From assembly GCA_900544765.1 (NCBI GenBank), contig UQWI01000001.1, positions 248,001 through 312,000 on the forward strand: 64,000 bases of DNA, given 5' to 3'. Origin of the DNA: an uncultured Eubacteriales bacterium. Lineage in GTDB: Bacteria > Bacillota > Clostridia > Oscillospirales > Oscillospiraceae. Position numbers and translations under genes: made by a program. Below are positions 1-12,763 of this stretch, piece by piece. The notes below the pieces were generated by a model that was not told where the DNA came from, ran no database searches, and saw only the letters and a program-made list of their open reading frames with translations. Every line of letters starts with the position of its first letter. The stretch's first letter is position 1.

Positions 1-610
1 TGCGCTTTCCTGTGGCCTTGGCGGCGGAAATGATATTCTGCATATCCGCGTCGGACACGGCGTCAAAGGTGAACACGCGCCCTCCGTCCAGGCTGAAGCC
101 GCTGCGCACAGCCTCAAGGCCTATGTGCGTCACGCTCTCGTCATACGCGGCGGAGAGCAGCCTGTTTATGTTGTCCTCGGTAACGGGGTTTTTCGGGTCC
201 CTGGCCAATTCGGTCTCCGTCAGCGGTACGCCCTTCAGGCAGTGTATGCCGTTCTCGGTCGTGCGCCCCAGCGCCGGTAGCGCCGGAGCAAATATGACTA
301 GCTCCGGCTTATAGAACTTGTCCATTGCGGCTACCTCTGCGGCGATGTTCCCGCGAAGAGTGGAGTCAACCTTCTTGATGACGTACTTGTAGTCATCAAA
401 ATTCACCTGCTCGCAGGCCGCGCTCACGGAAGCCGACGCGGTCTCGGCCGTGGTGCCTCGGCTCTCGGTATCCACGACGAGGCAGCCAGTGCCGACGGGC
501 AGCTTTTTGCCGGAAAATATGACGCTTGTAGCCAGACCACGGCGGCGAAGCTGTACGCCCGTGTCGTTGGCGCCTGTAAAATCGTCGGCTATTATCAGGT
601 ATCTGTCCAT
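1..610 (-). CDS. four-carbon acid sugar kinase (partial, cut by window edge)
   Basis: Only the N-terminal ~203 residues are present; the gene runs off the left edge. The motif ADDFTGAND at residues 8-16 is the N-terminal signature of the DUF1537 family (OtnK/DtnK), which phosphorylates threonate or erythronate-type acids at O4 with ATP. The start is the ATG at 608-610, preceded by GGGGGTGAG at good spacing. It begins 4 nt after the PdxA-like gene and is the last visible gene of the operon. Next to a PdxA2-type gene the best guess is D-threonate 4-kinase (DtnK); the C-terminal nucleotide-binding half that would strengthen this is not in the window. Confidence 0.82.
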   Translation of the reverse strand, partial: MDRYLIIADDFTGANDTGVQLRRRGLATSVIFSGKKLPVGTGCLVVDTESRGTTAETASASVSAACEQVNFDDYKYVIKKVDSTLRGNIAAEVAAMDKFYKPELVIFAPALPALGRTTENGIHCLKGVPLTETELARDPKNPVTEDNINRLLSAAYDESVTHIGLEAVRSGFSLDGGRVFTFDAVSDADMQNIISAAKATGKR

Positions 611-614
611 AGGC

Positions 615-1643
615 TCACCCCCTGTGGCGCGCAAGCTGGGCGGCGCAGTTTATTGAGTTCACGAGGCTGAGCTCGCTCGCGTTGCCATGCCCGGCGTGTC
701 CCATCGCGGTGCCGTGGTCGACGCTGACCCGGATAATAGGCAGGCCGCAGGTGATGTTCACGCCCGCAACGGCGTCCCATTCGCCCTTTTCCTCATTGTA
801 CACAAATCCCACGACTTTCATCGGTATGTGGCCCTGGTCGTGATACATGGCCACGACGATGTCGAACCAGCCGCCGCGCATTTTGCTGAACACGGTGTCC
901 GGAGCGACCGGGCCTGTCGCATCTATGCCTTCGGCCTTGGCGGCCTCCACGGCCGGGGCTATCTCGTCCAGGTCCTCCCTGCCGAAAAGCCCGTTTTCAC
1001 CGCAGTGCGGGTTCAGTCCCGCCACGCCGACGCGCGGGTTCTCAATGCCGAGCTGCCGGCAGGCGTCGGCGGCAATGCGTATGCACTCGAGCACGCGCTC
1101 CTTTTTCACACGGTCGCAGGCCTCTCGGAGCGAGACGTGCGTGGACACATGCACGACGCGCATGTTCTCGTGCATGAGCATCATGGTGTACTTCTTCGTG
1201 TTGGTATAGTGCGCATAGATTTCGGTGTGCCCCGAAAAATGGTGCCCTGCCAGGTTTATGGCCTCTTTGTTGAGCGGGTTTGTGACCGTGCCGTCAACCT
1301 CCTTGGCCATTGCCAGCTCAATCGCCTTGACGACGCACTTGAAAGCGGCTTCGCCAGCGACGGCGCTGACCTTGCCGGGGACAACCTCCTCCATCTTTTC
1401 GAGGCCGGGATCGAGCACATCTATTACGCCGCACTCAAACCTTGCCTCGGCAACGGAGCCGATTTCGTTTATCCTGATATCCGGCTTCCCCGTGAATTCT
1501 GTGGCGCGCCTCATAATAAACGGCGAGCCCACGACAAGCGGGCGGCAGTCGTCGTAAATTGCCGGGTCGGCGAGCGCCTTGACAGCAATCTCCGGGCCAA
1601 CGCCGGCGGGGTCTCCCATAGTAATTGCCAGAATCGGCTTCAT
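615..1643 (-). CDS. pdxA2: PdxA2-type 4-phospho-D-threonate (4-hydroxythreonine-4-phosphate-like) dehydrogenase
   Basis: 342 residues, full length for the PdxA family. The start MGDPAGVGPE (9-18) and metal-ligand histidines H169, H213 and H268 (in STHVSL, NPHCGE and YHDQG) are intact, as is NPLNKEAI near 122-129. PdxA itself serves pyridoxal phosphate synthesis; PdxA2 relatives oxidise and decarboxylate D-threonate 4-phosphate to dihydroxyacetone phosphate. No other vitamin B6 gene is nearby, whereas a four-carbon acid kinase follows immediately and a glycerate kinase precedes (10 nt gap), so the catabolic role is preferred. The start ATG has GAGGCGG upstream. Substrate assignment is by context, not by diagnostic residues. 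Confidence 0.87.
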   Translation of the reverse strand: MKPILAITMGDPAGVGPEIAVKALADPAIYDDCRPLVVGSPFIMRRATEFTGKPDIRINEIGSVAEARFECGVIDVLDPGLEKMEEVVPGKVSAVAGEAAFKCVVKAIELAMAKEVDGTVTNPLNKEAINLAGHHFSGHTEIYAHYTNTKKYTMMLMHENMRVVHVSTHVSLREACDRVKKERVLECIRIAADACRQLGIENPRVGVAGLNPHCGENGLFGREDLDEIAPAVEAAKAEGIDATGPVAPDTVFSKMRGGWFDIVVAMYHDQGHIPMKVVGFVYNEEKGEWDAVAGVNITCGLPIIRVSVDHGTAMGHAGHGNASELSLVNSINCAAQLARHRG

Positions 1644-1653
1644 CCGTACCGCC

Positions 1654-2790
1654 TCACATTCCCGCCACGCTCAACGCGCGCAGCACGTTCTCAACCGCAA
1701 AGCCCAGATTTTCCTCGCTGTGCTCCTTGAGCACGGAGAAATCCTGAGGCAGTCGGTTGATGGGGAAAATAGCGGTGACACCCTCGCCGTAAGCCGCGTC
1801 AACATCGTAGTCTGCGCCGCCGACAATTGCAATGACGGGTTTATCCTGCTTTGCAGCGCGCCTTGCGACACCGATTACCACCTTGCCGCGCAGGCTCTGA
1901 GAGTCTATCTTGCCTTCGCCGGTGAAAATTATGTCCGCATCCGCGATGGCTTTGTCGAACTCGACGGTGTCGAGCACGGTCTCTATGCCCATCTGGAGAC
2001 GCGAGCCGAAGAAGGCGACCATGCCCGCGCCCATTGCGCCGGCCGCGCCGGCGCCCGGCATATCCGCCACGTCGACGCCGACGTCGCGCTTTATGACCTC
2101 GGAGAGGTGCCTCAGGCCCTGATCGAGGAATTTGACCATTTCGGGGTCTGCGCCCTTCTGCGGCCCGAATATGTATGCCGCGCCGGTTTCGCCGTACATA
2201 GGGTTGTCTATGTCGCACATGGTGACTATCTCGACCTTGTCGAAGGCCGGGTTGCGCATGGACATGTCTATGCGCTCAATGTCTTTGAGCGTGCCTCCGA
2301 CGGGGACAAAGCTCTCGCCGGCGGCGTTGTAGAACTTAACTCCTGCCGCAGCAGCCGCGCCGCAGCCGCCGTCGTTCGTGGCGCTGCCGCCCAGGCCTAT
2401 TACAAGGCGCTTGGCCCCGCTGCGCGCCGCATCGGCCAGCAGCTCTCCAACGCCAAAGGTCGTGGTGCCGCGCGGGTCCTTGTGGTCGCCGACCATCGGC
2501 AGTCCGGCCGCAGCCGCCATTTCCAGCACGGCGGTCGCTCCGTTGTCTATAAGTCCGTAATAGCCGCTGCACTGCTCGAACCAGGGGCCGGTAACCTGCT
2601 TGGTAACCTTCTCGCCGCCGACAGCTGTGAGGAAGGCGTCAACGCTGCCCTCGCCGCCGTCTGCAACGGGTATCGACTGCACGGCGCAGCCGGGGAATAT
2701 CTTCTCAATGCGCTCGGCCATCAGCTCGCAAACACGAGTCGAAGAAACAGTACCCTTAAACGAATCGGGTATGAGAACTGCCTTTTTCAA
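1654..2790 (-). CDS. glycerate 2-kinase (GlxK/GarK family)
   Basis: About 378 residues of the glycerate kinase type-2 fold, opening with PDSFKG at 8-13 and carrying GLGGSATNDGGCG and FTGEGKIDSQS, typical of this family. It would convert D-glycerate to 2-phosphoglycerate with ATP, feeding lower glycolysis. I take the TTG at 2788-2790 as start because a GGAGG lies 8 nt upstream; a longer reading from 2805 would begin inside that ribosome binding site. It is the first gene after an intra-operon hairpin with a T run, so it may be expressed at a different level from larA-kdgT. In E. coli such kinases end sugar-diacid pathways controlled by CdaR. Confidence 0.9.
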   Translation of the reverse strand: MKKAVLIPDSFKGTVSSTRVCELMAERIEKIFPGCAVQSIPVADGGEGSVDAFLTAVGGEKVTKQVTGPWFEQCSGYYGLIDNGATAVLEMAAAAGLPMVGDHKDPRGTTTFGVGELLADAARSGAKRLVIGLGGSATNDGGCGAAAAAGVKFYNAAGESFVPVGGTLKDIERIDMSMRNPAFDKVEIVTMCDIDNPMYGETGAAYIFGPQKGADPEMVKFLDQGLRHLSEVIKRDVGVDVADMPGAGAAGAMGAGMVAFFGSRLQMGIETVLDTVEFDKAIADADIIFTGEGKIDSQSLRGKVVIGVARRAAKQDKPVIAIVGGADYDVDAAYGEGVTAIFPINRLPQDFSVLKEHSEENLGFAVENVLRALSVAGM

Positions 2791-2830
2791 TGCACAAGCC
2801 TCCAATCGCTTACAGTTTCTTATAAAAACT

Positions 2831-2855
2831 GCGCCGGCCCCGGCGGAGCCGGCGC
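2831..2855 (-). terminator. intra-operon terminator or attenuator between larA-like gene and glycerate kinase
   Basis: GC-rich stem GCGCCGGC/GCCGGCGC followed on the minus strand by AGTTTTTAT. It could reduce read-through from the permease and racemase genes into the kinase-dehydrogenase genes. Confidence 0.55.
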
Positions 2856-2913
2856 ATTGTAATTCAGAGCCGGTTATAGCAGTTCAGCACTCATATACCG
2901 CTCTGAACGGCTT

Positions 2914-4197
2914 TTACACTACCATGACGGAGACGCCGTCGGGGATAGCGAGAATAGAGCCGTCCTTCACGCCCTTGGCGGCGAGTATCTCGTCGGCCTT
3001 GGCAAGCGCCTCTTCCATGGAGTGAGCGGGAACCATGTGCAGGTCGGAGACCATATCGTCCGGAGCGTCGGAAACAAAGACGACGGTCGCGCGCATCAGC
3101 AGCCTGGCGAAAATCTGGCTCTGCCACTGGTCGATGATGGTTTCCGTGGGCGGGGTGGCGATGAACTTGTCCATCATGCGCTGGAGGTTCTTCTCGTCGC
3201 GGAAGGTCTCATAGAACACCTTGCCGCCGTGCCCGTCGTTGCACTTGCTGAGCATTATGATGACGCCGCCTTCCTTGACGGTGGCCTCGGCAGCGGTCAT
3301 GCCCTTGACAGACTGGTATATGTTCTGGTCGAGAGGATAGCCGCCGTTGGTGGAGATAACGATGTCGCTCATCTTGGCGGGGACCTGGCACTGGCTGCTC
3401 AGGAACTCGCGGCCGACACGGTGGGCGAGGTCGACGTCGCCGGCGACGGCGTAGATTGGGGTCTTTTCACTGTCGTTGATGACGTTGACAACATAGGCCA
3501 GGCGCGCGGCGCGGGCGGCATAGAGCATGTCGTTGTGGATGGGGTTGCCGTCCACAATGCCGGTGCGGCTGTGCGGGTCGGCTATGAACGCGCCGTTGTG
3601 GTTGTAAACGACGGTCTTGCGGGAGGCGATGCCGGGCAGGATGCTCTTGCGTCCGCCGGAGAAGCCCGCGAAGAAGTGAGGCTCAATGAAGCCCTCGGCC
3701 ACCAGAAGATCTGCCTCCGCGGCCAGCTTGTTGATGATGAGGTCGCCGCCGCTGGGCAGCTTGCCGAGATAGACGAGGTTGTCGGTGTCGTCGCAGTCGT
3801 GGACAACTATCTTCTCGTTCTTAACTATATCCTCGCCGAACTTGTTGACCAGCTCTTCCTCGGTGGTCGCACGGTGGCAGCCGGTGGAAATGAGCAGGGT
3901 GATGTCCGCGTCGGGGCTGCCCTTACGAATCTCCTCGAGCATCGGGGGGATTATGACCTTGCTGGGGACCGGGCGGGTGTGGTCGGAGCATATAACGACA
4001 ACCTTCTTCTTGCCCTCTGCCATAACAGCCAGGGTCGGGGTTCCGATGGGGTTGGCCATGGCGGCGCGCACAAGCTCATCCGGGGTTCCGGCAGGCTTGT
4101 ACTCATGCATGTGGCTCTCCATTACGCCGGCAAAACGGCTCTCGGGAATGTCGAGCTCCAGAAATTCTTTTCCATAGGGGAATTTTACGACTGGCAT
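2914..4197 (-). CDS. larA: LarA-family nickel-pincer-dependent racemase/epimerase
   Basis: 427 residues, normal LarA length. Every residue known to matter in Lactobacillus plantarum lactate racemase appears at the same number: D72 and R75 (in DHTRPVP), H108, H174, K184 (the lysine tethering the nickel-pincer nucleotide, in GFSGGRK), H200, Q295 and K298. It is therefore very likely an active cofactor-dependent 2-hydroxyacid racemase or epimerase. LarB/LarC/LarE, needed to build the cofactor, are not in the window. Family members are known that act on lactate, malate, phenyllactate and gluconate; here the permease, glycerate kinase, PdxA2 and acid-kinase neighbours point to a sugar acid instead of lactate (inference). 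A strong AGGAGG precedes the ATG. Confidence 0.88.
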   Translation of the reverse strand: MPVVKFPYGKEFLELDIPESRFAGVMESHMHEYKPAGTPDELVRAAMANPIGTPTLAVMAEGKKKVVVICSDHTRPVPSKVIIPPMLEEIRKGSPDADITLLISTGCHRATTEEELVNKFGEDIVKNEKIVVHDCDDTDNLVYLGKLPSGGDLIINKLAAEADLLVAEGFIEPHFFAGFSGGRKSILPGIASRKTVVYNHNGAFIADPHSRTGIVDGNPIHNDMLYAARAARLAYVVNVINDSEKTPIYAVAGDVDLAHRVGREFLSSQCQVPAKMSDIVISTNGGYPLDQNIYQSVKGMTAAEATVKEGGVIIMLSKCNDGHGGKVFYETFRDEKNLQRMMDKFIATPPTETIIDQWQSQIFARLLMRATVVFVSDAPDDMVSDLHMVPAHSMEEALAKADEILAAKGVKDGSILAIPDGVSVMVV

Positions 4198-4229
4198 TAT
4201 AATTTCCTCCTAAATCAATTCTTTATACA

Positions 4230-4260
4230 GGCACCGGGCCGGCTATAGCCGTCCGGTGCC
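4230..4260. other. intercistronic stem-loop between permease and larA
   Basis: Near-perfect dyad GGCACCGG...CCGGTGCC with an inner GGCTATAGCC core. There is no T run on the minus strand, so it looks more like an mRNA-stabilising or processing structure than a terminator. Confidence 0.5.
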
Positions 4261-4277
4261 ATTAATTTAGCGGTAAA

Positions 4278-5258
4278 TCAGCCTTTCGCGGCCTTCTTGG
4301 CCTCCACCTTGGCCCTTCTCTTAACCTCATACCTGTGCAGCAGGTTGACGAAGATGGGGCAGAGGATGGCGGTGACTATGCAGCTCGCAGCCATCTGAGC
4401 GGTAGCCGCAGTGACATAGGGGCTGAGCGAGGTATCGGCTGCAGCGACAGCTGCCGGAGTCCCGGCCGCATTGCCGGCGGTGGTGCCGATGGCGCCGCCG
4501 CATTCAGCGTGCTTGCTGCGGATGAGGCGCATAAGGAGATAGCCAGCGCCGCCGGTGAGGATGCAGCAGATGACGCCCAGCAGGATGCCGGAGAGGCCGG
4601 CGCTGATGAGCTGAGTGAAGTTGAGGCCCGCGCCGAGGGGGAACGCAAAGAACGGGATGAGGATGGTCGCGCCCGCTTCGGTGAACTTGCGGATGTCCTC
4701 GTCGAGGTTGCCGAGGATGCAGCCGACAACTATAGGGGCGACGCAGCCGACAAGAATCCAGCCGTCTATCTCCGCAATACCGGTGGCGCCCATGGCGACC
4801 ATGGTGAGGAACGGTCCGTCATTGATGGAAAGAATGGAAACAGCACCGACGTCTGTCGCGTCACCGAACTCACCGGAGAGAGCGGCGTAGAGGCCGCCGT
4901 TGGAGTTGGTAATGGCGCCGATGAGGGCCAGCGGGGTGAGTCCCCAGATGCCCTCGGGTCCCCAGATGCTGTTGACCAGCCAGCCGAGGGCAGCGCCGAT
5001 AAAGAACTTGATTGCGGTCAGGATTACGCCCTTGGCAAGAGGCACGCCGGCGGACTTGACGTTAATCTGCGCGCCGTTACAAAACAGGAACACAGCCAGG
5101 ATAGGCATTGCGCCGCTCTTCCAGAGATAGGTGGTGAACGTGCTGTCGCCGCCTATCGTAATCAGGCCGGGTGCCCATGTGTTCAGTGCTGCGCCGAGCA
5201 GCAGAGGAATAACCATCAGGCCGCCCGGTATTTTCTTTACCGTTTGCAGAATCTTCAT
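4278..5258 (-). CDS. kdgT: KdgT-family sugar-acid permease (2-keto-3-deoxygluconate permease family)
   Basis: 326 residues, highly hydrophobic with about ten predicted membrane segments, and matching the KdgT family from the start (KKIPGGLMVIPLLLGA) through ITNSNGGLYAAL and GTTAGNAAGTPAAVA. Members import 2-keto-3-deoxygluconate with protons; relatives carry other small sugar acids. It is the first gene of the operon, about 375 nt downstream of a strong promoter at 5640-5668, and starts at an ATG behind GGAGGAAAAGAGA. Together with the downstream enzymes it probably brings in the acid that the LarA homologue and kinases process. The exact substrate cannot be read from sequence. Confidence 0.88.
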   Translation of the reverse strand: MKILQTVKKIPGGLMVIPLLLGAALNTWAPGLITIGGDSTFTTYLWKSGAMPILAVFLFCNGAQINVKSAGVPLAKGVILTAIKFFIGAALGWLVNSIWGPEGIWGLTPLALIGAITNSNGGLYAALSGEFGDATDVGAVSILSINDGPFLTMVAMGATGIAEIDGWILVGCVAPIVVGCILGNLDEDIRKFTEAGATILIPFFAFPLGAGLNFTQLISAGLSGILLGVICCILTGGAGYLLMRLIRSKHAECGGAIGTTAGNAAGTPAAVAAADTSLSPYVTAATAQMAASCIVTAILCPIFVNLLHRYEVKRRAKVEAKKAAKG

Positions 5259-5639
5259 TCTCTTTTCCTCCTAACAGAGATAAATGATTTGCCTTTCGGC
5301 TGTAATTGGCCGGATTCCCCAGAATCCGTTTTTGCTGCTGTGTCTCACCTCCTGACGAGCTTTCCATAATTGCGGCAGAGATGCAGTCCTCGCCGGGAAT
5401 TACACGTGGCCGTCCCGCTTACCGGTTACGTTGGGCGGCGGCGCCCCCTTCCGCGCCCGTTCAATTCGGGGCGCATATTCCCAGCTTCGGCCGCTCTCAC
5501 ACGGCAGCGCCGGATACAGTACGAGCGGGAGCAAAAAGCAAACCTTCTTATGCAAGCAGGCTTTATTCGCTCTTATAAAAGGCTATTTTTCCCTTTTTTA
5601 CTGTAAAAGGCACATACACGGCCAAGCTTTCTGAAGCCA

Positions 5640-5668
5640 AGTATATTTTCTTTTTTTGCCGTTGTCAA
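5640..5668 (-). promoter_or_regulatory. sigma-A promoter of the permease-larA-kinase operon
   Basis: -35 TTGACA at 5663-5668, 17-bp spacer, -10 TATACT at 5640-5645 on the minus strand. It implies a leader of roughly 375 nt before the kdgT-type start, long enough for RNA-level control. Confidence 0.75.
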
Positions 5669-6192
5669 GAATACAAACAAAGAAACTATGTATAACTTGC
5701 TCAAAAACGAAGTGTGCTTTCTCTCTTTTTTGTTCTAATCAAGTGCACAAGCGGTGCAAACCACATCATTTTGCACATGTTTATTACACCGTCGCTCATT
5801 CTTCCTGTTGCGCACATTTGGAGTTTACGTCCATTTTATCGCATCCCGATAATCCTGGTCAGCTTAAAAAATACTCATCTTACGTCATGCATATTGGGTA
5901 GGTAATGTCCTTTGTCGGAGGTCCGTCCGTCACTAATGCGCATGCCGGTTTTGTCCTTGATGTCCCTGAATGCACTGTATACGATTCTTAGCGTATACAG
6001 GCTTTTTGTTTATGCCTCAAATCCTTCTCCTGAGCTGTTTATCTGAGAGCTTTTCATCTTCAGGGCCGTTCTCGCGGCAGCGTTTCATCCGGCCTCCAAG
6101 TCCGCATAGGCAAAGATTCGCAGCGTCCGCCGCTCCTACAGGATATAGCCCGCACAGCGTCCTATTATCCTGTTCACACAGCCGCTCCCCTT
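5669..6192. other. gene-poor stretch, no supportable coding sequence
   Basis: Together with the leader at 5259-5632 this makes a ~930-nt gap. The part from about 5560 to 6010 is clearly more AT-rich than its surroundings. Short open frames occur but none has a convincing ribosome binding site, codon pattern or recognisable protein. It holds one perfect spaced palindrome (5975-6000) and probably the 3' end of the decayed transporter transcript. Confidence 0.6.
5975..6000. promoter_or_regulatory. perfect inverted repeat CTGTATACG-N8-CGTATACAG
   Basis: Two 9-bp arms, each itself containing the palindrome GTATAC, separated by ATTCTTAG. GTATAC-centred sites resemble operators of FCD-type GntR regulators of sugar-acid genes, but no such regulator is in the window. 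It lies ~310 bp upstream of the operon promoter. A weak plus-strand terminator is an alternative, since CTTTTTG follows. Confidence 0.4.
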
Positions 6193-7363
6193 TCATTTTT
6201 TCAGTCCTATGGTGCACTTTACCATCTCGTAAACCACATACACCGCCACAATCAATTCAGTAATCGGCATGGCGAACCAGATTGAGTCCGCTCCCGCCAC
6301 CACAGGCAGCAGGTAAATCAGGATACCGCTGACGACGAAGCCGCGAGCAACGGACACGATGAAGGCGTTCTTCGGCTTCATAAGCGCCTGGAAGTAGTAG
6401 GTGGAGAAAATATTCAGGGGGAGCAGGATGAAAGAGACACAGTAGCAGCGTATTATCCCCGGGGCTATCTCCAGCACTTCAGGCGTCGGAGACATAAAGA
6501 CGCGTATAAACATATTGGGGAACGCGAGGCTCAGAGCAGTCCAGAACACACTGAACACCGCCGCAGTTCCGAGGGCGTATTTGAGCGTCTGCCGGATTCT
6601 GTCCCCGTTGCCCGCACCGTAGTTTGTAGATATAATGGGCTGCGAGGCCTGGCCGACGCTGTATGTGCAGCACTGTGCCAAGGTGCTGACGTTGACAATG
6701 ACACCGTAGACGGCAAGCGCGTCATTCCGCAGGTACTTCATAATCTGACGGTTGAAAAGTATGGTGAGGATGCCCATTGCCACGTCTATGAAGAAGGTCG
6801 AAAAACCGGTTACAGATATCTCTTTCAGCTTTTTGGGAAGGCGGGTTGGTTTTACAAGCTTGAGCGTATTTCTCTTAGTGAAGAAGTGCGCAAGCATGAC
6901 TACGAAGGTGATGGTAGAACCGATTGCCGTGGCAAGCCCGACGCCGCAGGCGCCCATGTCGCAGGTGAACACGAAGAAGTAATCGCCGAATACGTTGAAA
7001 ATGCCGCCTGCCAGGACGGTGCCCGTGGCGAGAGCCGGGTTTTTGTCGTTGCGCAGATATGCAGCAAGCATCTGGTTGAAGAGGAAGAGCGGAATCGCAT
7101 ACTTGATGGGAGCCACATACTCCAGGCCGAGGGTCAGGGTGTTGTCCTTTGCCCCGAACATGGTCAGCAGCTCTGTCGAAGAAGATAATCAGCATCCATA
7201 TAATCGCCGCCAGAATGACGGAGCCTGTTACTGAAGCCGTGAAGTATTCGTTAGACTCCTTCTCCTGACCGCGCACGCGGCCTCGTATAGTGCTGAAAAT
7301 TACGGAGCCGCCTATACCCATAAGCAGGCCGAAGCTGTAAATAATATTCCAGACCGGAGCCAC
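6193..7363 (-). pseudogene. MATE-family efflux transporter, 5'-truncated and frameshifted
   Basis: The C-terminal three quarters (from MFGAKDNTLTLG to the end at 6193) is an intact MATE Na+- or H+-driven multidrug exporter sequence. The preceding part (VAPVWNIIYSFGLLMGIGGS to LIIFFD) lies in another frame: one extra base near 7170-7175 (GACAGAGCTG where GACGAGCTG would keep frame) breaks the gene. Upstream, the frame is closed by a TGA at 7373-7375, so roughly the first 45-50 residues, including the first membrane helix, are missing. It has a good promoter at 7483-7511, but a terminator-like hairpin sits between promoter and coding remnant. A sequencing error could explain the frameshift but not the missing N terminus. 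Confidence 0.75.
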
Positions 7364-7396
7364 GACTGCTTGTCACATCCTTTTTAAAATGAAAAA

Positions 7397-7439
7397 AGCC
7401 GGACAAGGTCAGACGTTCCAGTCTGTGCCTTATCCGGCT
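7397..7439 (-). terminator. strong hairpin with T run upstream of the MATE remnant
   Basis: Stem AGCCGGATAAGG.../...CCTTGTCCGGCT followed by TTTTTT on the minus strand. It lies ~45 nt after the predicted transcription start, so it would end a short RNA of about 90 nt or act as an attenuator for the decayed transporter. Confidence 0.65.
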
Positions 7440-7482
7440 AATCATTTCTTACGAATGATTTGCCCTCCGAGCAAGCCCAGCA

Positions 7483-7511
7483 ATGCTAACGCAACATATC
7501 TTGTATGTCAA
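7483..7511 (-). promoter_or_regulatory. promoter upstream of the MATE remnant
   Basis: -35 TTGACA at 7506-7511, 17-bp spacer, -10 TAGCAT at 7483-7488 (minus strand). Confidence 0.55.
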
Positions 7512-7602
7512 TAGCCAAATTGACCATTTCCCAGGCCATAATTTGCGTGCCGCGCGTCAATCCGCTGCTCTACAAAGCGGCTCCAAAACAGCGCTGAAAT
7601 TA

Positions 7603-7630
7603 AAAAAGGAGGGATTTTTCCCTCCTTTTT
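7603..7630 (-). terminator. lysS terminator
   Basis: AAAAAGGAGGGA/TCCCTCCTTTTTT hairpin ending the minus-strand greA-lysS transcript directly after the lysS stop; A and T runs on both sides make it bidirectional. Confidence 0.8.
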
Positions 7631-7633
7631 GGT

Positions 7634-9580
7634 TTAATACAGTTTTGCGCCCGCGGGGATATTGTCGTCCAGGACGATGAGGTTCAGCCTCTCTTCGCCC
7701 TCCTCCTTGTGCAGCGCGGAGATTATCATGCCGCAGGAGTCTATTCCCATCATCTTGCGGGGCGGCAGGTTCGTGATGGCCAGCAGCGTCTTGCCAACAA
7801 GCGTTTCAGGCTCGTAGTAGTCGTGTATGCCGCTGAGTATGACGCGGTCCTCGCCGGAGCCGTCGTCCAGCGTGAACTTGAGCAGCTTCTTGCTCTTCTT
7901 GACGGCCTCGCACTCCTTGACCTTGACCACGCGGAAGTCGCTCTTGCTGAAGGTCTCAAAGTCCACAAAGTCGGCGAAGAGCGGTTCCACCTCGGCCTTG
8001 GACAAGTCGACGTGCACCTTAGGCTGCACCGTCTCTGCCGTCTCTGCCGGGGCTGCGGGTGCGGAGTCCTGCCTGTCGCGCTCAAGCGGCTTCATCGTGG
8101 GGAACAATATGACGTCCCTTATAGAGTCGCTGCCGGTGAGGAGCATGGCGCAGCGGTCTATGCCGATGCCCAGTCCGCCCGTGGGAGGCATACCGTACTC
8201 CAGGGCGTTGATGTAGTCGTAGTCCATCATGCCGGCCTCGTCGTCGCCCTTGGCGCGTAGCTCGACCTGCTTGAGGAAGCGCTCCTTCTGGTCGATGGGG
8301 TCGTTCAGCTCGCTGAAGGCGTTGCCCATCTCGCTGCGGCAGATGAACAGCTCGAAGCGCTCGGTGAGGCGCTTGTCCTTCGGGCTGCGCTTGGCCAGCG
8401 GGCTGACGTCGACCGGGTGCATGGTGATGAAGGTGGGCTGAACCATGTACTCCTCCACCTTCTGGTCGAAGCACTCGTAGAGGGCGTTGCCCCAGGTTGG
8501 CTCCTTGCCGTCCATGTCCACGCCCACGGACTTTGCGGCTGCGACAGCCTCGGCGTCGCTGTCGATGGCCATGAAGTCCACTCCCAGATACTTGTTGACG
8601 GCCTCGGCCATGGTCATGCGCGGCCAGCCGGGAGCCAGCGAGACGTGCTCGCCCTGCCAGTCTATCTCGTAGGTGCCGAGTATCTCCATCGCAGCGCCGC
8701 TGAGCAAGTCCTCAAAGAGGTCCATCATGTCGTTGAAGTCGGCGTAGGCCTGGTAGAGCTCGACGGTGGTGAACTCGGGGTTGTGGCGCGTGTCCATGCC
8801 CTCGTTGCGGAAGATGCGGCCGAGCTCGTACACGCGCTCTATGCCGCCGACGATAAGGCGCTTGAGCGGCAGCTCGGTGGCTATGCGCAGATACATGTCC
8901 ATATCCAGCGTATTGTGGTGGGTTATAAAGGGCCTCGCCGTCGCGCCGCCGGAGATGGTGTTAAGCACCGGAGTCTCGACTTCCATGTATCCGCGGTTCT
9001 CCAGGAAACGGCGGACGTAGCTCACGAACCTGGAGCGTATCTCGAAGTTGCGTCGGCTCTCGTCGCTCATGATGAGGTCGACGTAGCGCTGGCGGTACTT
9101 GAGCTCCACGTTGGTCATGCCGTGGAACTTCTCGGGCAGCGGCCTGAGGCTCTTGGCCAGCAGAGTGACCTTCTCCGCGTGGACGCTTATCTCGCCGGTC
9201 TTGGTCTTGAAAACATAGCCCTCCACGCCGATGATGTCGCCGATATCGTAGCGGCGGAAGTCGGCAAACTCCTGCTCGCTGACCGCGTCGGCGCGCACAT
9301 AAAGCTGTATCTGGCCGCGGTCGTCCTTGATGTGGCAGAAGATGGCCTTGCCCATACCGCGCTTGGACATGATGCGTCCGGCCACGGAGACATGCTGGTT
9401 CTCAAGCTTATCGTAGCCTTCCTTTATCTCGCTGGTCCAGGCCGTGCGCTTATAGCTTGTTATCTCAAAGGGGTCGCGCCCGGTCTTGCGCAGCTCATCG
9501 AGCTTTTCATGCCGGACGCGCAGAATCTCGCTGAGCTCCTGCCCGGCGTCGTTTACGTTGTTTCTGGTATCCCCGCTCAT
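7634..9580 (-). CDS. lysS: lysyl-tRNA synthetase (class II) fused to a C-terminal tRNA-binding domain
   Basis: 648 residues against about 490-510 for ordinary bacterial LysRS. The first ~505 residues are a complete class II enzyme: N-terminal OB-fold anticodon domain ([16 protein letters not shown]), motif 2 [15 protein letters not shown], motif 3 [16 protein letters not shown]. After a Pro/Ala-rich linker comes a ~105-residue EMAP/Trbp111-like OB domain ([22 protein letters not shown], then [13 protein letters not shown]), the kind usually found at the C terminus of MetRS. It attaches lysine to tRNA-Lys; the extra domain should raise general tRNA affinity. Shares the promoter at 10123-10151 with greA, 15 nt upstream. 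Confidence 0.96.
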
Positions 9581-9595
9581 ATGTCCCCGCTTTCT

Positions 9596-10078
9596 TTAGT
9601 CGTTGCTGACAGCAAGTATGGTGAAGCGCATCTCGCCCGCCGGGGCCTCAACGGTCACGGTCTCGCCCACGCGGTGGCCAAGGATGGCGCGGCCTATCGG
9701 GCTCTCGTCGGAGATGCGTCCCTGCATCGGGTTGGCCTCCTGGGAACCGACAATCTGGTACTCGATTTCGTCCTTCTCGTCCACGTCGAGCAGCTTGACA
9801 TGGCTGCTGAGGCTGACGGTGTCGGCGTCCAGCTCGGTCTTTTCAATTATCTCGGCGTTCTCGATGAGCACCTTCATCTCGGCAATCTTCGAGTAGAGCT
9901 TGCCCTGCTCGGTCTTGGCCTCGTCGTACTCGCTGTTCTCGCTGAGGTCGCCGAAGCTGCGTGCCTCTTTTATGAGCTCGCTGACTTCCTTCTCGCGTAC
10001 AGTCTCGAGGTAATTGAGCTCCTCGACAAGCGCGTCATAGCGCTCTTGGCTCATCTTATACTTGCTCTCGGCAGTCAT
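9596..10078 (-). CDS. greA: transcription elongation factor GreA
   Basis: 160 residues from the ATG at 10078, chosen because GGAAGGAAG sits just upstream; a longer frame to 10111 would start inside the leader. N-terminal coiled coil with the acidic tip FGDLSENSEYDEAK, which reaches into the RNA polymerase secondary channel to stimulate cleavage of backtracked RNA, followed by the C-terminal FKBP-like domain (IGRAILGHRVGETVTVEAP). First gene of the greA-lysS unit, an arrangement common in Firmicutes. A second, more divergent Gre factor is encoded at 26691-27194. Confidence 0.95.
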   Translation of the reverse strand: MTAESKYKMSQERYDALVEELNYLETVREKEVSELIKEARSFGDLSENSEYDEAKTEQGKLYSKIAEMKVLIENAEIIEKTELDADTVSLSSHVKLLDVDEKDEIEYQIVGSQEANPMQGRISDESPIGRAILGHRVGETVTVEAPAGEMRFTILAVSND

Positions 10079-10122
10079 TGCTATCTTCCTTCCGTAATTT
10101 ATGCGGCGCATCCGCGCCGAAT

Positions 10123-10151
10123 ATTATAAGTTTGCTGTTATTGATTGTCAA
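10123..10151 (-). promoter_or_regulatory. greA-lysS promoter
   Basis: -35 TTGACA (10146-10151), 17-bp spacer, -10 TATAAT (10123-10128): a consensus sigma-A promoter. A small GGCGC/GCGCC hairpin follows in the leader. Confidence 0.88.
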
Positions 10152-10158
10152 GCGCTCA

Positions 10159-11346
10159 TCAGAGCATCCATTGTACCGCGGATATAGCCGCGGAAAGCTG
10201 TGCGTCGCCGGTGGCGGTAAGCTCTACCTCCTGGTCGGGTATCAGTCCGCCCTGCTCCGCCAGATCTACGCCCAGAGGGGTCAGGTAGCGCGCCGTTGAA
10301 ATGTGTATCGCGCTGCCGTCGGAAAGCTCCAGCGTCTGCTGGCTGCGGGATTTGCCCGTAGTGCGCGTGCCTATAATCTCGGCCCAGTTGTACTCCTGGA
10401 GCGCGGCCGCGAAAAACTCCGCCGCAGAATAGGTGTCGGCATTTACCAGCACCGCCATCGGCATATTCAGGCAGACACTGTCCGACTCCGTCGGCGTCTG
10501 GTTCCCGTCCTTGTCCACGCTGATGAATATAGTGCCGGACGGCAGCAGGTAGTCGAGCAGAGAGGTGAGCTCGCTCACCAGCCCGCCCGGGTTCGTGCGC
10601 ACATCGAACACGAAACCCACCGCACCCTGGCTGAGCAGGTTCTCGATGGCATTTATCGCGGCATCTGCGGCCCCGGACTGGAAATTCAGTATCTGGACGT
10701 AGCCGATGTTGCCGCTCATCATTTCATAGCTGACTGGGTTTGTATAAACAACCGCGCAGTTTACGTTTAGCGTCGACTGGTTTCCGCTGGCGTTCTGTAT
10801 AGTCAGCTGCACCGTCTCACCTATGTTTGCCTCTATAAAGCTGCGGGCATCACCGACAGTCATGCTGGTTATATCCGTGCCGTTTATGGCCAGTATGATA
10901 TTCCCCGCTACGAGCCCCGCCGTATCCGCCGGGCTGTCGTCTGTAACGCCGGTTATTGCCAGGCCTCCGGTTTTGGCGTCCTTATCTATCTGTATGCCCA
11001 GCCCGACATATTGATTCTGACTGTAGAGCTTGTAAGCCTCATACTCGCTGGGGCTCATGTAATAGCTCCACTGGTCTCCCAGCGCCTCAACCATAGCGGC
11101 GAACGCGGCGCTGGACACAGCTTCCTCATCCACTGTGCCGACGTAATTCTCATCCAGCATGTTTTTTATCTCCAGGTATTTCATAGCCTGGTTGTAGTTC
11201 TCCTCGGAGCCTATCAGGTTGCGCTCGCGCTGCATGGTCAGTCCGTATGTCACGCCCACGCAGAGGATACATGCCAGTATAAGCACCCAGAACCTGATTT
11301 TTATGCCGAAAAAGGCTTTGGCGACATTTCCCAGTCGGTTTTTCAC
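10159..11346 (-). CDS. ctpA: S41 C-terminal processing peptidase (CtpA/CtpB family)
   Basis: 395 residues: short cytoplasmic start, one membrane anchor at about 19-37, PDZ domain at about 110-195 (VGLGIQI, GNIILAINGTDI), then the tail-specific protease fold. The Ser-Lys dyad is visible as S307 in ADTYSAAEFFA and K332 in GTRTTGKSRSQ. The enzyme acts outside the membrane on secreted or envelope proteins; Bacillus CtpB takes part in sporulation signalling. GTG start at 11346 behind AGGAGG. It follows the M23 peptidase and ftsEX genes on the same strand, an order common in clostridia, which suggests a cell-envelope role. Confidence 0.92.
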   Translation of the reverse strand: MKNRLGNVAKAFFGIKIRFWVLILACILCVGVTYGLTMQRERNLIGSEENYNQAMKYLEIKNMLDENYVGTVDEEAVSSAAFAAMVEALGDQWSYYMSPSEYEAYKLYSQNQYVGLGIQIDKDAKTGGLAITGVTDDSPADTAGLVAGNIILAINGTDITSMTVGDARSFIEANIGETVQLTIQNASGNQSTLNVNCAVVYTNPVSYEMMSGNIGYVQILNFQSGAADAAINAIENLLSQGAVGFVFDVRTNPGGLVSELTSLLDYLLPSGTIFISVDKDGNQTPTESDSVCLNMPMAVLVNADTYSAAEFFAAALQEYNWAEIIGTRTTGKSRSQQTLELSDGSAIHISTARYLTPLGVDLAEQGGLIPDQEVELTATGDAQLSAAISAVQWML

Positions 11347-11383
11347 TTAATCGCCTCCTGTCCAGGGGTTAGATAAAACTTTG

Positions 11384-11433
11384 GCGCCGGCATGCACCGG
11401 CGCTCTCATGCGGGCGGCCAAAAGGCCGCCCGC
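11384..11433 (-). terminator. two GC-rich stem-loops between M23 gene and ctpA
   Basis: Stems GCGCCGG/CCGGCGC (11384-11403) and GCGGGCGGCC/GGCCGCCCGC (11410-11433). There is only a short T stretch (GTTTTATC) beyond, so this is termination or mRNA stabilisation. Confidence 0.5.
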
Positions 11434-11449
11434 ACATATTTGTTACCTA

Positions 11450-12763
11450 TCAGGCGTCCGGCGCGTATGTCAGGCCGGAGAAGTACTGTGTCGGGTCAAC
11501 CGTACTGCCGGAGGCATTACGCACCTCGAAGTGGAGGTGCGGGCCGGTAGACCAGCCAGTGGAGCCGACATAGCCGATTGTCTGCCCCTGTGTCACGGTC
11601 TGTCCCGCGCTGACGGCCAGTGAGCTCATATGTGCATAGAGCGTATATGTGCCGTCGGAGTGGTATATCATGACATAGTTGCCGTAGGATGAGCTGTAGG
11701 TCGCGACGGTGACGGTGCCGCCGTCGGCAGCGAGCACGGTGGCTCCCTCATTTGCGCTGATGTCGATGCCGGAGTGGAAGCGCTCCGTACCGAATATGGG
11801 ATGGATGCGGTTGCCGTATCCACTGGTTATGTAGGTGCTGGACGGGCAGGGCCAGACATAGGTGCCGGTGACGACGCTCGTGTCAGGGGGCGTTACCGTA
11901 CCGGAGCCGCTGTCGGAGCCCGTGTCGCCGCTGTTGGAATCGCCGCCGGTACTTCCACCCTGCTGCTCATCCTTTGCAGCCTGCTCGGCCTCCCACATCT
12001 GCTGGGCTATCTCGTTCATCTGGGCGTTGAGCGACTGCTCGGCGGCCTCATTCGCAAGATATTCCTGCTGGGCCTGCTCTATATCCTCGTCGAGGTCGGC
12101 GATAAGGGCTACGGCCTCTTCTATCTGTGCCTCGAGCTCTGCCTTCTGGCTTTCAAGCTCATCCTGGGTGGTTCCCAGCTCTGCAAGCGTGGTCTCGTAC
12201 TCGGCCTTGACGCGCTCGGTCTCCTGGCGCGAGGCCTTGTACTGCTCGAACAAGCGCTCGTCCGCGCTCATAATCTCACTTATATCGTCCATAGCAGACA
12301 GGAGCTGGCCGAGGCTGCGGCACTGGAAGAGTATATCCAGGTAGGTATAGCTGCCGTTCTCCTCCATGGCGCGCACACGCTTGCAATAGAGTTCGTACTG
12401 CTCCGCCTCTGCCTGCTGGGCATCCTCGAGCTCCGCGCTCTTCTGCTCCAGAAGGTTGTTATAGAGGTCAATCTGCTCGTTTATGAGCTCTATCTCCTCC
12501 ATGGCGTACTGGTTCTGCTCGTCCAGCACGGCCTTCTTCTCAAGCACGGTTTCACGCTCGGCCATCAGCTCGTTAATGTTGGCCTGCATGTCCTCACGCT
12601 CAGCCTGGAGCTGCTCTTTCTGCTCTTCCAGGTCGTCTATCTGTTCCTGGAAGGATGAGTCCGCGGCAAGCACTCCCGCTGAGCCCATGACCGAAAGCAT
12701 AAGCGACAGCACAAGAAGGAAGGCCATTACTATTGCGACTACTGAAATTACTGATTTTTTCAT
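11450..12763 (-). CDS. M23 peptidoglycan endopeptidase with N-terminal coiled coil (EnvC/PcsB-like)
   Basis: 437 residues. Hydrophobic signal segment at about 5-33 (signal peptide ending VLAA), long Glu/Gln-rich coiled coil at about 37-260, a Gly/Ser/Thr-rich linker, then a LytM/M23 domain with zinc-site motifs HSGIDIS and HLHFEVR. It should cut peptide cross-links in the wall. Proteins of this plan are switched on by FtsEX, whose genes lie directly upstream on the same strand (20 nt from ftsX), so this is probably the FtsEX-controlled hydrolase (PcsB/CwlO/EnvC role) for division or elongation. The zinc residues look intact, so unlike EnvC itself it may be enzymatically active. Confidence 0.92.
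   Translation of the reverse strand: MKKSVISVVAIVMAFLLVLSLMLSVMGSAGVLAADSSFQEQIDDLEEQKEQLQAEREDMQANINELMAERETVLEKKAVLDEQNQYAMEEIELINEQIDLYNNLLEQKSAELEDAQQAEAEQYELYCKRVRAMEENGSYTYLDILFQCRSLGQLLSAMDDISEIMSADERLFEQYKASRQETERVKAEYETTLAELGTTQDELESQKAELEAQIEEAVALIADLDEDIEQAQQEYLANEAAEQSLNAQMNEIAQQMWEAEQAAKDEQQGGSTGGDSNSGDTGSDSGSGTVTPPDTSVVTGTYVWPCPSSTYITSGYGNRIHPIFGTERFHSGIDISANEGATVLAADGGTVTVATYSSSYGNYVMIYHSDGTYTLYAHMSSLAVSAGQTVTQGQTIGYVGSTGWSTGPHLHFEVRNASGSTVDPTQYFSGLTYAPDA

Follow-up and report, generated by a model that had tools for sequence, protein, structure and literature searches.

A LarA homologue beside glycerate kinase in a sugar-acid operon of an uncultured Oscillospiraceae bacterium: a candidate glycerate racemase

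Introduction

Which acid does a nickel-dependent racemase act on when its gene stands among genes for the degradation of sugar acids? The question is raised by a stretch of 64,000 nucleotides from an uncultured, gut-type Eubacteriales bacterium of the family Oscillospiraceae (contig UQWI01000001.1, positions 248,001 to 312,000), here called the window, in which a larA gene lies between the genes for a KdgT-type permease and a glycerate kinase (GK), followed by homologues of pdxA and dtnK. The D-threonate pathway, reportedly laid out by Zhang et al. in 2016, leads through DtnK and PdxA2 to dihydroxyacetone phosphate, and the initial annotation of this DNA proposed that LarA interconverts D-erythronate and D-threonate at C2 and so feeds DtnK and PdxA without the DenD/OtnI/OtnC steps. 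From the neighborhoods of 235 LarA loci and from the residue at position 359 of the enzyme, we arrive at another reading, to which we give a probability of about 0.6: this LarA would be a glycerate racemase that feeds the adjacent kinase, in an operon that would also degrade a four-carbon (C4) sugar acid.

Results

LarA and the genes around it

Five co-directional genes occupy positions 1 to 5258 of the window, and profile matches bear out the set as initially annotated:

5258-4278, minus strand: kdgT, KdgT-type small sugar-acid permease, 326 aa (PF03812, 380 bits)
4197-2914, minus strand: larA, nickel-pincer-nucleotide (NPN) 2-hydroxyacid racemase of the LAR group, Gln359 type, 427 aa (PF09861 and PF21113)
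2790-1654, minus strand: class I GK, 378 aa with a TTG start (PF02595, 449.8 bits)
1643-615, minus strand: pdxA homologue, D-threonate-4-phosphate dehydrogenase-like (PF04166, 345 bits)
610-1, minus strand: dtnK, a DtnK/OtnK-type kinase of the DUF1537 family, N-terminal 203 aa, cut by the window start (PF07005, 174.7 bits)

The window LarA matches the model NF033504, "nickel-dependent lactate racemase," over its full length, with both the Lar_N and the LarA_C domain (612.8 bits; cut-off, 460), and falls under the cut-offs of two malate models and of the LarAH10, LarAH14-16, and hexonate models. Its residue numbering has zero offset to that of Lactiplantibacillus plantarum LarA (PDB 2yjg/5huq). 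Residues D72, R75, H108, H174, K184, H200, Q295, and K298, which the initial annotation had listed at lactate racemase numbering, are all in place, and with them the NPN-binding and catalytic residues R75, H108, H174, K184, and H200. At the selectivity positions 175, 176, 358, and 359, the enzyme has F, F, W, and Q, which fits the LAR signature F, F, W, E/Q. Two other activities were considered and rejected: that of the gluconate 2-epimerase GntE, which has E, V, A, and H at these four positions, and that of a hexonate epimerase, whose model NF052594 gives a score of 23.9 against a cut-off of 500. Residue 359, which was absent from the initial list, proved to be the informative one.

Glycerate kinase is the recurrent neighbor of Gln359 LarA

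LarA genes were collected from a scan of genome contigs, in which the best 80 of 585 relatives to a window-like alignment made up the first sample, and from 17, 200, 394, 397, and 194 further genomes (one genus, two families, and two orders, with some overlap). Flanks were taken for most LarA matches, many loci having only ~1.5 kb on each side, and genes were labeled with profile hidden Markov models on clusters of the first loci, which very distant kinases and permeases can escape. After removal of identical sequences, the 235 LarA loci comprised 136 with Gln359, 49 with Glu359, 25 with Cys359, 11 with Lys359, and 14 with other residues. Since the first 80 loci were chosen for their match to the window-like alignment, the evenly drawn genomes were also counted separately.

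The arrangement seen in the window is not unique to one genome and is found repeatedly among Oscillospiraceae, Lachnospiraceae, and other Clostridia. Among loci whose flanks extend 1.4 kb or more in each direction, those with a GK of one or the other class no further than 500 bp from larA number 32 of 111 for Gln359, 0 of 39 for Glu359, 1 of 23 for Cys359, and 0 of 11 for Lys359 (Gln359 versus Glu359, Fisher test, P = 2e-5, kinship ignored). In the evenly drawn genomes alone, the counts are 9 of 52 (Gln359), 0 of 25 (Glu359), and 0 of 18 (Cys359). None of the 49 Glu359 loci of the full set has a GK nearby. The position of the kinase is also well defined: in 35 of the 39 Gln359 loci that have a GK within 3 kb, it follows larA directly on the same strand, at a distance of 6 to 141 bp, and kdgT, pdxA, and dtnK stand upstream or downstream of the pair in variable order.

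The kinase in this position is not always the same protein. Glycerate kinases fall into two classes without a common origin, class I (PF02595) and class II (MOFRL/DUF4147) (PMC2063504), and the GK within 500 bp of larA belongs to class I in 31 loci and to class II in 8, of which 7 have a Gln359 LarA and one has a Cys359 LarA, whose gene is on the other strand from that of the kinase. Two nonhomologous classes in the same position indicate that the function is conserved rather than the gene, which argues that the product of LarA is the substrate of the kinase.

Gln359, glycerate, and lactate

Three enzymes of the LAR group, and LarA1, racemize several short acids (PMC11770544). LarAH43 is the characterized LAR enzyme that performs best on glycerate, which is also its own best published substrate (kcat/KM of 1.14e5 M-1 s-1, with 8.3e4 M-1 s-1 on lactate and 1.7e2 M-1 s-1 on 4-deoxy-D-threonate/erythronate). 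That Gln359 could account for the glycerate preference of LarAH43 is a suggestion that the authors of PMC11770544 draw from models, without mutagenesis, and the physiological significance of glycerate racemization by LarA is, according to them, still to be determined. Another LarA relative also acts comparatively well on L-glycerate (PMC11851776), while glycerate and deoxythreonate are named merely as possible further substrates in PMC7583248. In the text of PMC11770544 as available, the word "threonate" is used five times, each time for 4-deoxy compounds, and no results for threonate or erythronate as such appear.

Lactate genes (those for FAD-linked dehydrogenase, EtfAB, and LctP permease) lie within 4 kb of larA in 26 of 39 Glu359 loci and in 0 of 110 Gln359 loci (the window excluded). 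We placed the 102 rows with clear context on a tree built from an alignment without column 359, the other 117 of 219 rows, without a compared context or with short flanks, having been dropped. The distribution of Q and E at position 359 needs six changes on this tree. Of its 70 Q/E rows with GK or lactate context, 39 combine Gln359 with GK and 31 combine Glu359 with lactate genes, with no crossed combination, and the Cys359 rows include two in lactate context and one in GK context. All five independent pairs (5/5) are concordant for residue 359 and context. The window groups with a sister locus, L131 (support, 100), and a group of five is formed with L001, L002, and L005 (support, 99).

These data bear directly on another view, in which the window LarA simply racemizes lactate and stands in the operon by chance or for reasons of regulation. 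Its match to NF033504 and the almost equal performance of LarAH43 on lactate and glycerate (PMC11770544) would agree with that view. However, genes for lactate dehydrogenase, EtfAB, or LctP occur within 4 kb at no locus whose GK lies within 3 kb, and the 33 rows of the tree in lactate context consist of 31 Glu359 and 2 Cys359 enzymes, with no Gln359 among them. We therefore consider an ordinary lactate racemase improbable.

The four-carbon branch

The erythronate/threonate epimerase of the initial annotation would tie LarA to dtnK and pdxA, which share an operon with larA in the window and in the sister genome. Flanks of 5 kb or more on each side are available for 67 Gln359 loci. GK stands together with dtnK/pdxA in 16 of these and without dtnK/pdxA in 8; dtnK/pdxA without GK occurs in none, and 43 lack both. 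The 16 loci speak for such an epimerase; the 8 loci with larA and GK alone, set against 0 of the reverse kind, speak against it. In 6 of these 8, GK directly follows larA, the exceptions being L061 (opposite strand) and L226 (2.2 kb away). Where one flank or both are short, nine loci do show larA with dtnK/pdxA and no GK, but 8 of the 9 belong to genomes with a GK elsewhere.

Sampling from the kinase side, which took in 7 of 391 Clostridia genomes with a DtnK-like match, one of them already seen, yielded six new loci, L260 to L265, which stand outside the 235-locus counts. In this small sample, five of the six dtnK/pdxA clusters lack larA. These five (L261 to L265) contain genes for a PrpR-type activator, UxaA-type subunit(s), KdgT, DtnK, and PdxA, with no larA or GK in 14 to 17 kb, and are apparently C4-acid operons with a dehydratase in place of larA-GK. 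The sixth, L260 (genome G1509), combines a Gln359 LarA (64% identical) with pdxA and dtnK. It also has a kdgT in divergent orientation and genes for a 2-hydroxyacid dehydrogenase and a TIM-barrel protein resembling xylose isomerase, and neither class of GK is found in its 17 kb.

LAR enzymes weakly epimerize 4-deoxy-threonate/erythronate, yet LarAH43, which shares Gln359 with the window enzyme and prefers glycerate, is ~670-fold less efficient on these 4-deoxy C4 acids (PMC11770544), and the pocket of the window LarA is of the LAR type, unlike that of GntE. With a GK of two unrelated classes as the conserved partner of larA, C2 epimerization of D-erythronate and D-threonate is disfavored as the main function; in view of L260, a C4 role may hold for some members. 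We rank the epimerase proposal second to a glycerate racemase, as possible but, for the window enzyme, rather unlikely.

A broad C3/C4 epimerase that serves both branches, acting on L/D-glycerate and D-erythronate/D-threonate and perhaps on the substrate of a UxaA-type split dehydratase, would account for the C3 and C4 genes being linked at 22 of 39 loci with GK and for the two dehydratase subunits (SAF and GD_AH) that follow dtnK in the sister operon, and LAR enzymes are promiscuous (PMC11770544). The low activities measured on 2,3-dihydroxybutyrates (PMC11770544) and the occurrence of UxaA-type genes with dtnK, in the absence of larA, in 5 of the 6 loci sampled from the kinase side point the other way, and we regard such an enzyme as unlikely.

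A sister locus carries the cofactor genes

In the sister genome G167, locus L131 aligns with positions 40 to 5272 of the window at 81% nucleotide identity. The encoded proteins are 81% (KdgT), 95% (LarA), 89% (GK), 88% (PdxA), and 74% (the available part of DtnK) identical. The genes of L131 lie on one strand in the order dnaJ-like, larE, kdgT, larA, GK, pdxA, dtnK, two UxaA/galactarate-dehydratase-type subunits (SAF and GD_AH), larB, and larC, and the LarE, LarB, and LarC proteins all score over the cut-offs. Unlike the window, L131 contains a full-length kinase gene:

11692-12906 of L131: full-length sister dtnK (PF07005 and PF17042)

Similarity between the window and L131 ends at kdgT, and there is no larE upstream of kdgT in the window. 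Searched against the 64 kb of the window, the LarB, LarC, LarE, and UxaA subunits of the sister gave no tblastn match at an E value of 1e-3. The larBCE genes, on whose presence the initial annotation had also relied, were thus recovered in full in the sister locus, as a proxy only, and not in the window. In related genomes, LarC is present in 13 of 15 (in G010 as a fragment only) and LarE is over its cut-off in 13 of 14; LarB was looked for in the sister locus and the window only. Judged by these relatives, the NPN cofactor system very probably exists in the organism of the window.

Other genes and signals of the operon

The permease reaches 239 bits with TIGR00793, under the cut-off of 453.8, and is thus a relative of the 2-keto-3-deoxygluconate (KDG) transporter but no equivalog of it. 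GK scores well above the cut-off of TIGR00045 (411.5 bits; cut-off, 168), and the solved structure nearest to it is 3cwc, "putative glycerate kinase 2." For PdxA, the nearest solved structure is 6e85, "D-threonate 4-phosphate dehydrogenase" (302.7 bits), while the score with the NCBIfam model of that enzyme, NF002891, is 356 against a cut-off of 583. ThrnKinDtnkGamma is the best NCBIfam model for the DUF1537 kinase of the window; the full-length sister kinase has 279 against the cut-off of 450 for D-threonate kinase (NF047819), and the nearest solved DUF1537-like chains, 4xfm and 4xfr, are both entered as uncharacterized. With both proteins below the equivalog cut-offs, "PdxA2" and "DtnK" are names of the nearest models only.

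The gaps between consecutive genes, from kdgT to dtnK, are 80, 108 (123 with the TTG at 2790), 10, and 4 bp. Translation of GK probably starts at the TTG at 2790 rather than at the TTG at 2805 of the open reading frame (ORF) list, because a GGAGG ribosome-binding site stands eight bases before the former. Ribosome-binding sites are clear at kdgT, larA, and this GK start and weaker at pdxA and dtnK. Two further signals, each a consensus match only, were found on the same strand:

2830-2856, minus strand: terminator-like hairpin in the larA-GK gap, 12 pairs followed by GTTTTT
5640-5668, minus strand: sigma-70-like promoter box, TTGACA-17-TATACT, 11 of 12 matches

A hairpin also stands in this gap of L131 (only the window and L131 were folded), and one was spotted by eye in the larA-GK gaps of L004, L006, L023, and L048. 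Such a structure may act as an attenuator of the part with the kinase or set the ratio of the two parts of the operon. The promoter box begins at 5668, the end of the interval initially annotated, ~380 bp upstream of kdgT. No riboswitch or other known RNA scored over threshold in positions 1 to 12000 of the window, and none of the 207 plasmid records with a match covers 80% of the operon. At 6193-7363 of the window, a MATE-family ORF (322 aa, PF01554) overlaps an ORF of 162 aa that lies just upstream in another frame, so the MATE-family gene may be frameshifted.

Other LarA neighborhoods

Outside the GK and lactate contexts, several further associations of LarA were observed. Among Cys359 LarAs, the type of LarAH42, 23 loci have flanks of 1.4 kb or more, and in 19 of these a two-subunit UxaA-type dehydratase lies within 2 kb. 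It consists of a SAF subunit of ~96 to 104 aa and a GD_AH subunit of ~387 to 400 aa (L256, positions 6447-9444; also L213, L243, L244, L257, and others), and L256 has in addition a galactonate-dehydratase-like protein and an adenylosuccinate-lyase-family protein. Given this dehydratase and the neighbors in L256, Cys359 LarAs may have a sugar acid, and not 2-hydroxybutyrate, as their natural substrate.

In records of Treponema and other spirochaetes (L010, L029, L045, L047, L199, and L207), Gln359 larA genes lie 10 to 27 bp from a homologue of iron-containing alcohol dehydrogenase. Pairs of kdgT and larA are followed by a NUDIX protein of 301 to 312 aa in L202, L035, L040, L042, and L049 (the domain was checked in L035 and L202 and assigned by clustering in the rest). 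In L049, the DUF1537 kinase and PdxA read as one fusion of 775 aa on the opposite strand.

Discussion

GK is specific for D-glycerate. In the pathway that we propose, whose substrates, stereochemistry, and physiological role are predicted from genes and residues, the KdgT-type permease would import glycerate and C4 acids. LarA would then interconvert L-glycerate and D-glycerate by inversion at C2 through proton-coupled hydride transfer to the NPN cofactor, as in LarA1, and the class I GK would trap D-glycerate as phosphoglycerate, which would enter lower glycolysis. In a parallel C4 branch, the DUF1537 kinase and PdxA would convert D-threonate, or a close C4 acid, to dihydroxyacetone phosphate.

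Several observations weigh against this assignment. An adjacent GK is lacking in 79 of the 111 Gln359 loci, so Gln359 alone is no proof of glycerate and is at best necessary, and the sign test on the independent pairs (p = 0.0625) cannot go below this value and thus never reaches 0.05. The activity of LarAH43 on lactate, at 8.3e4 M-1 s-1 (PMC11770544), keeps lactate in play as a substrate. The likeliest counterpart of LarAH43, L135 in genome G017, has a PrpR-type regulator beside it and neither GK nor dtnK as a neighbor; its LarA is 64% identical to that of the window, and G017 is the only genome of the 17 in the genus search with both a Gln359 and a Cys359 LarA, but the species name of LarAH43 does not appear among the 120 matches listed by a protein search, and the identity of this candidate is unproven and is not relied on here. 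Locus L260 keeps larA with pdxA and dtnK and has no GK in 17 kb, and the link of larA to the C4 branch (on the tree, 22 of 39 loci with GK also have dtnK/pdxA) is real and is not explained by glycerate alone. A terminator-like hairpin stands between larA and GK. Finally, L026 in genome G011 has the full cluster, and that genome, which may be incomplete, shows no LarC and no LarE over the cut-off.

We also consider, tentatively, that LarA is the stereochemical hub of a combined C3/C4 pathway, inverting C2 of both glycerate and erythronate/threonate. If so, gut anaerobes could use all these isomers with a single racemase-epimerase, a permease, two kinases, and one oxidative decarboxylase.

As a glycerate racemase, the LarA of the window would give an activity measured in vitro a metabolic role: paired with interchangeable classes of kinase, it would open L-glycerate to D-glycerate kinases. 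The occurrence of Gln359 with GK and of Glu359 with lactate genes provides a testable single-residue hypothesis and a basis for the reannotation of "lactate racemase" genes. No description of a larA-GK operon, of a role in L-glycerate use, or of a correspondence between residue and operon surfaced in our literature search, from whose coverage subscription journals mostly fall outside. The enzyme type itself is already known.

Among characterized enzymes, LarAH43 of Enterocloster asparagiformis is close to the window LarA in that both belong to the LAR group and have Gln359 (PMC11770544). The gene of the window lies between those for a permease and a GK, whereas the unproven Enterocloster candidate is without GK or dtnK neighbors. 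GntE (LarAH19/LarAH20), which epimerizes sugar acids, shares membership of the LarA superfamily with the window enzyme. L. plantarum LarA1 (PDB 5huq and 6c1w) matches the window LarA over its full length, in both domains, and has the same catalytic and cofactor residues. Its own gene presumably has lactate genes as neighbors, in contrast to the sugar-acid genes around larA in the window. The two enzymes differ at positions 355, 359, and 360, which are P, T, and A in LarA1 (PMC7583248) and I, Q, and S in the window. The D-threonate pathway of DtnK and PdxA2 (cited in PMC10971088) and the window have in common a DUF1537 kinase adjoining a PdxA homologue; the window adds larA and GK to this pair, and its type of kinase and PdxA falls under the equivalog cut-offs.

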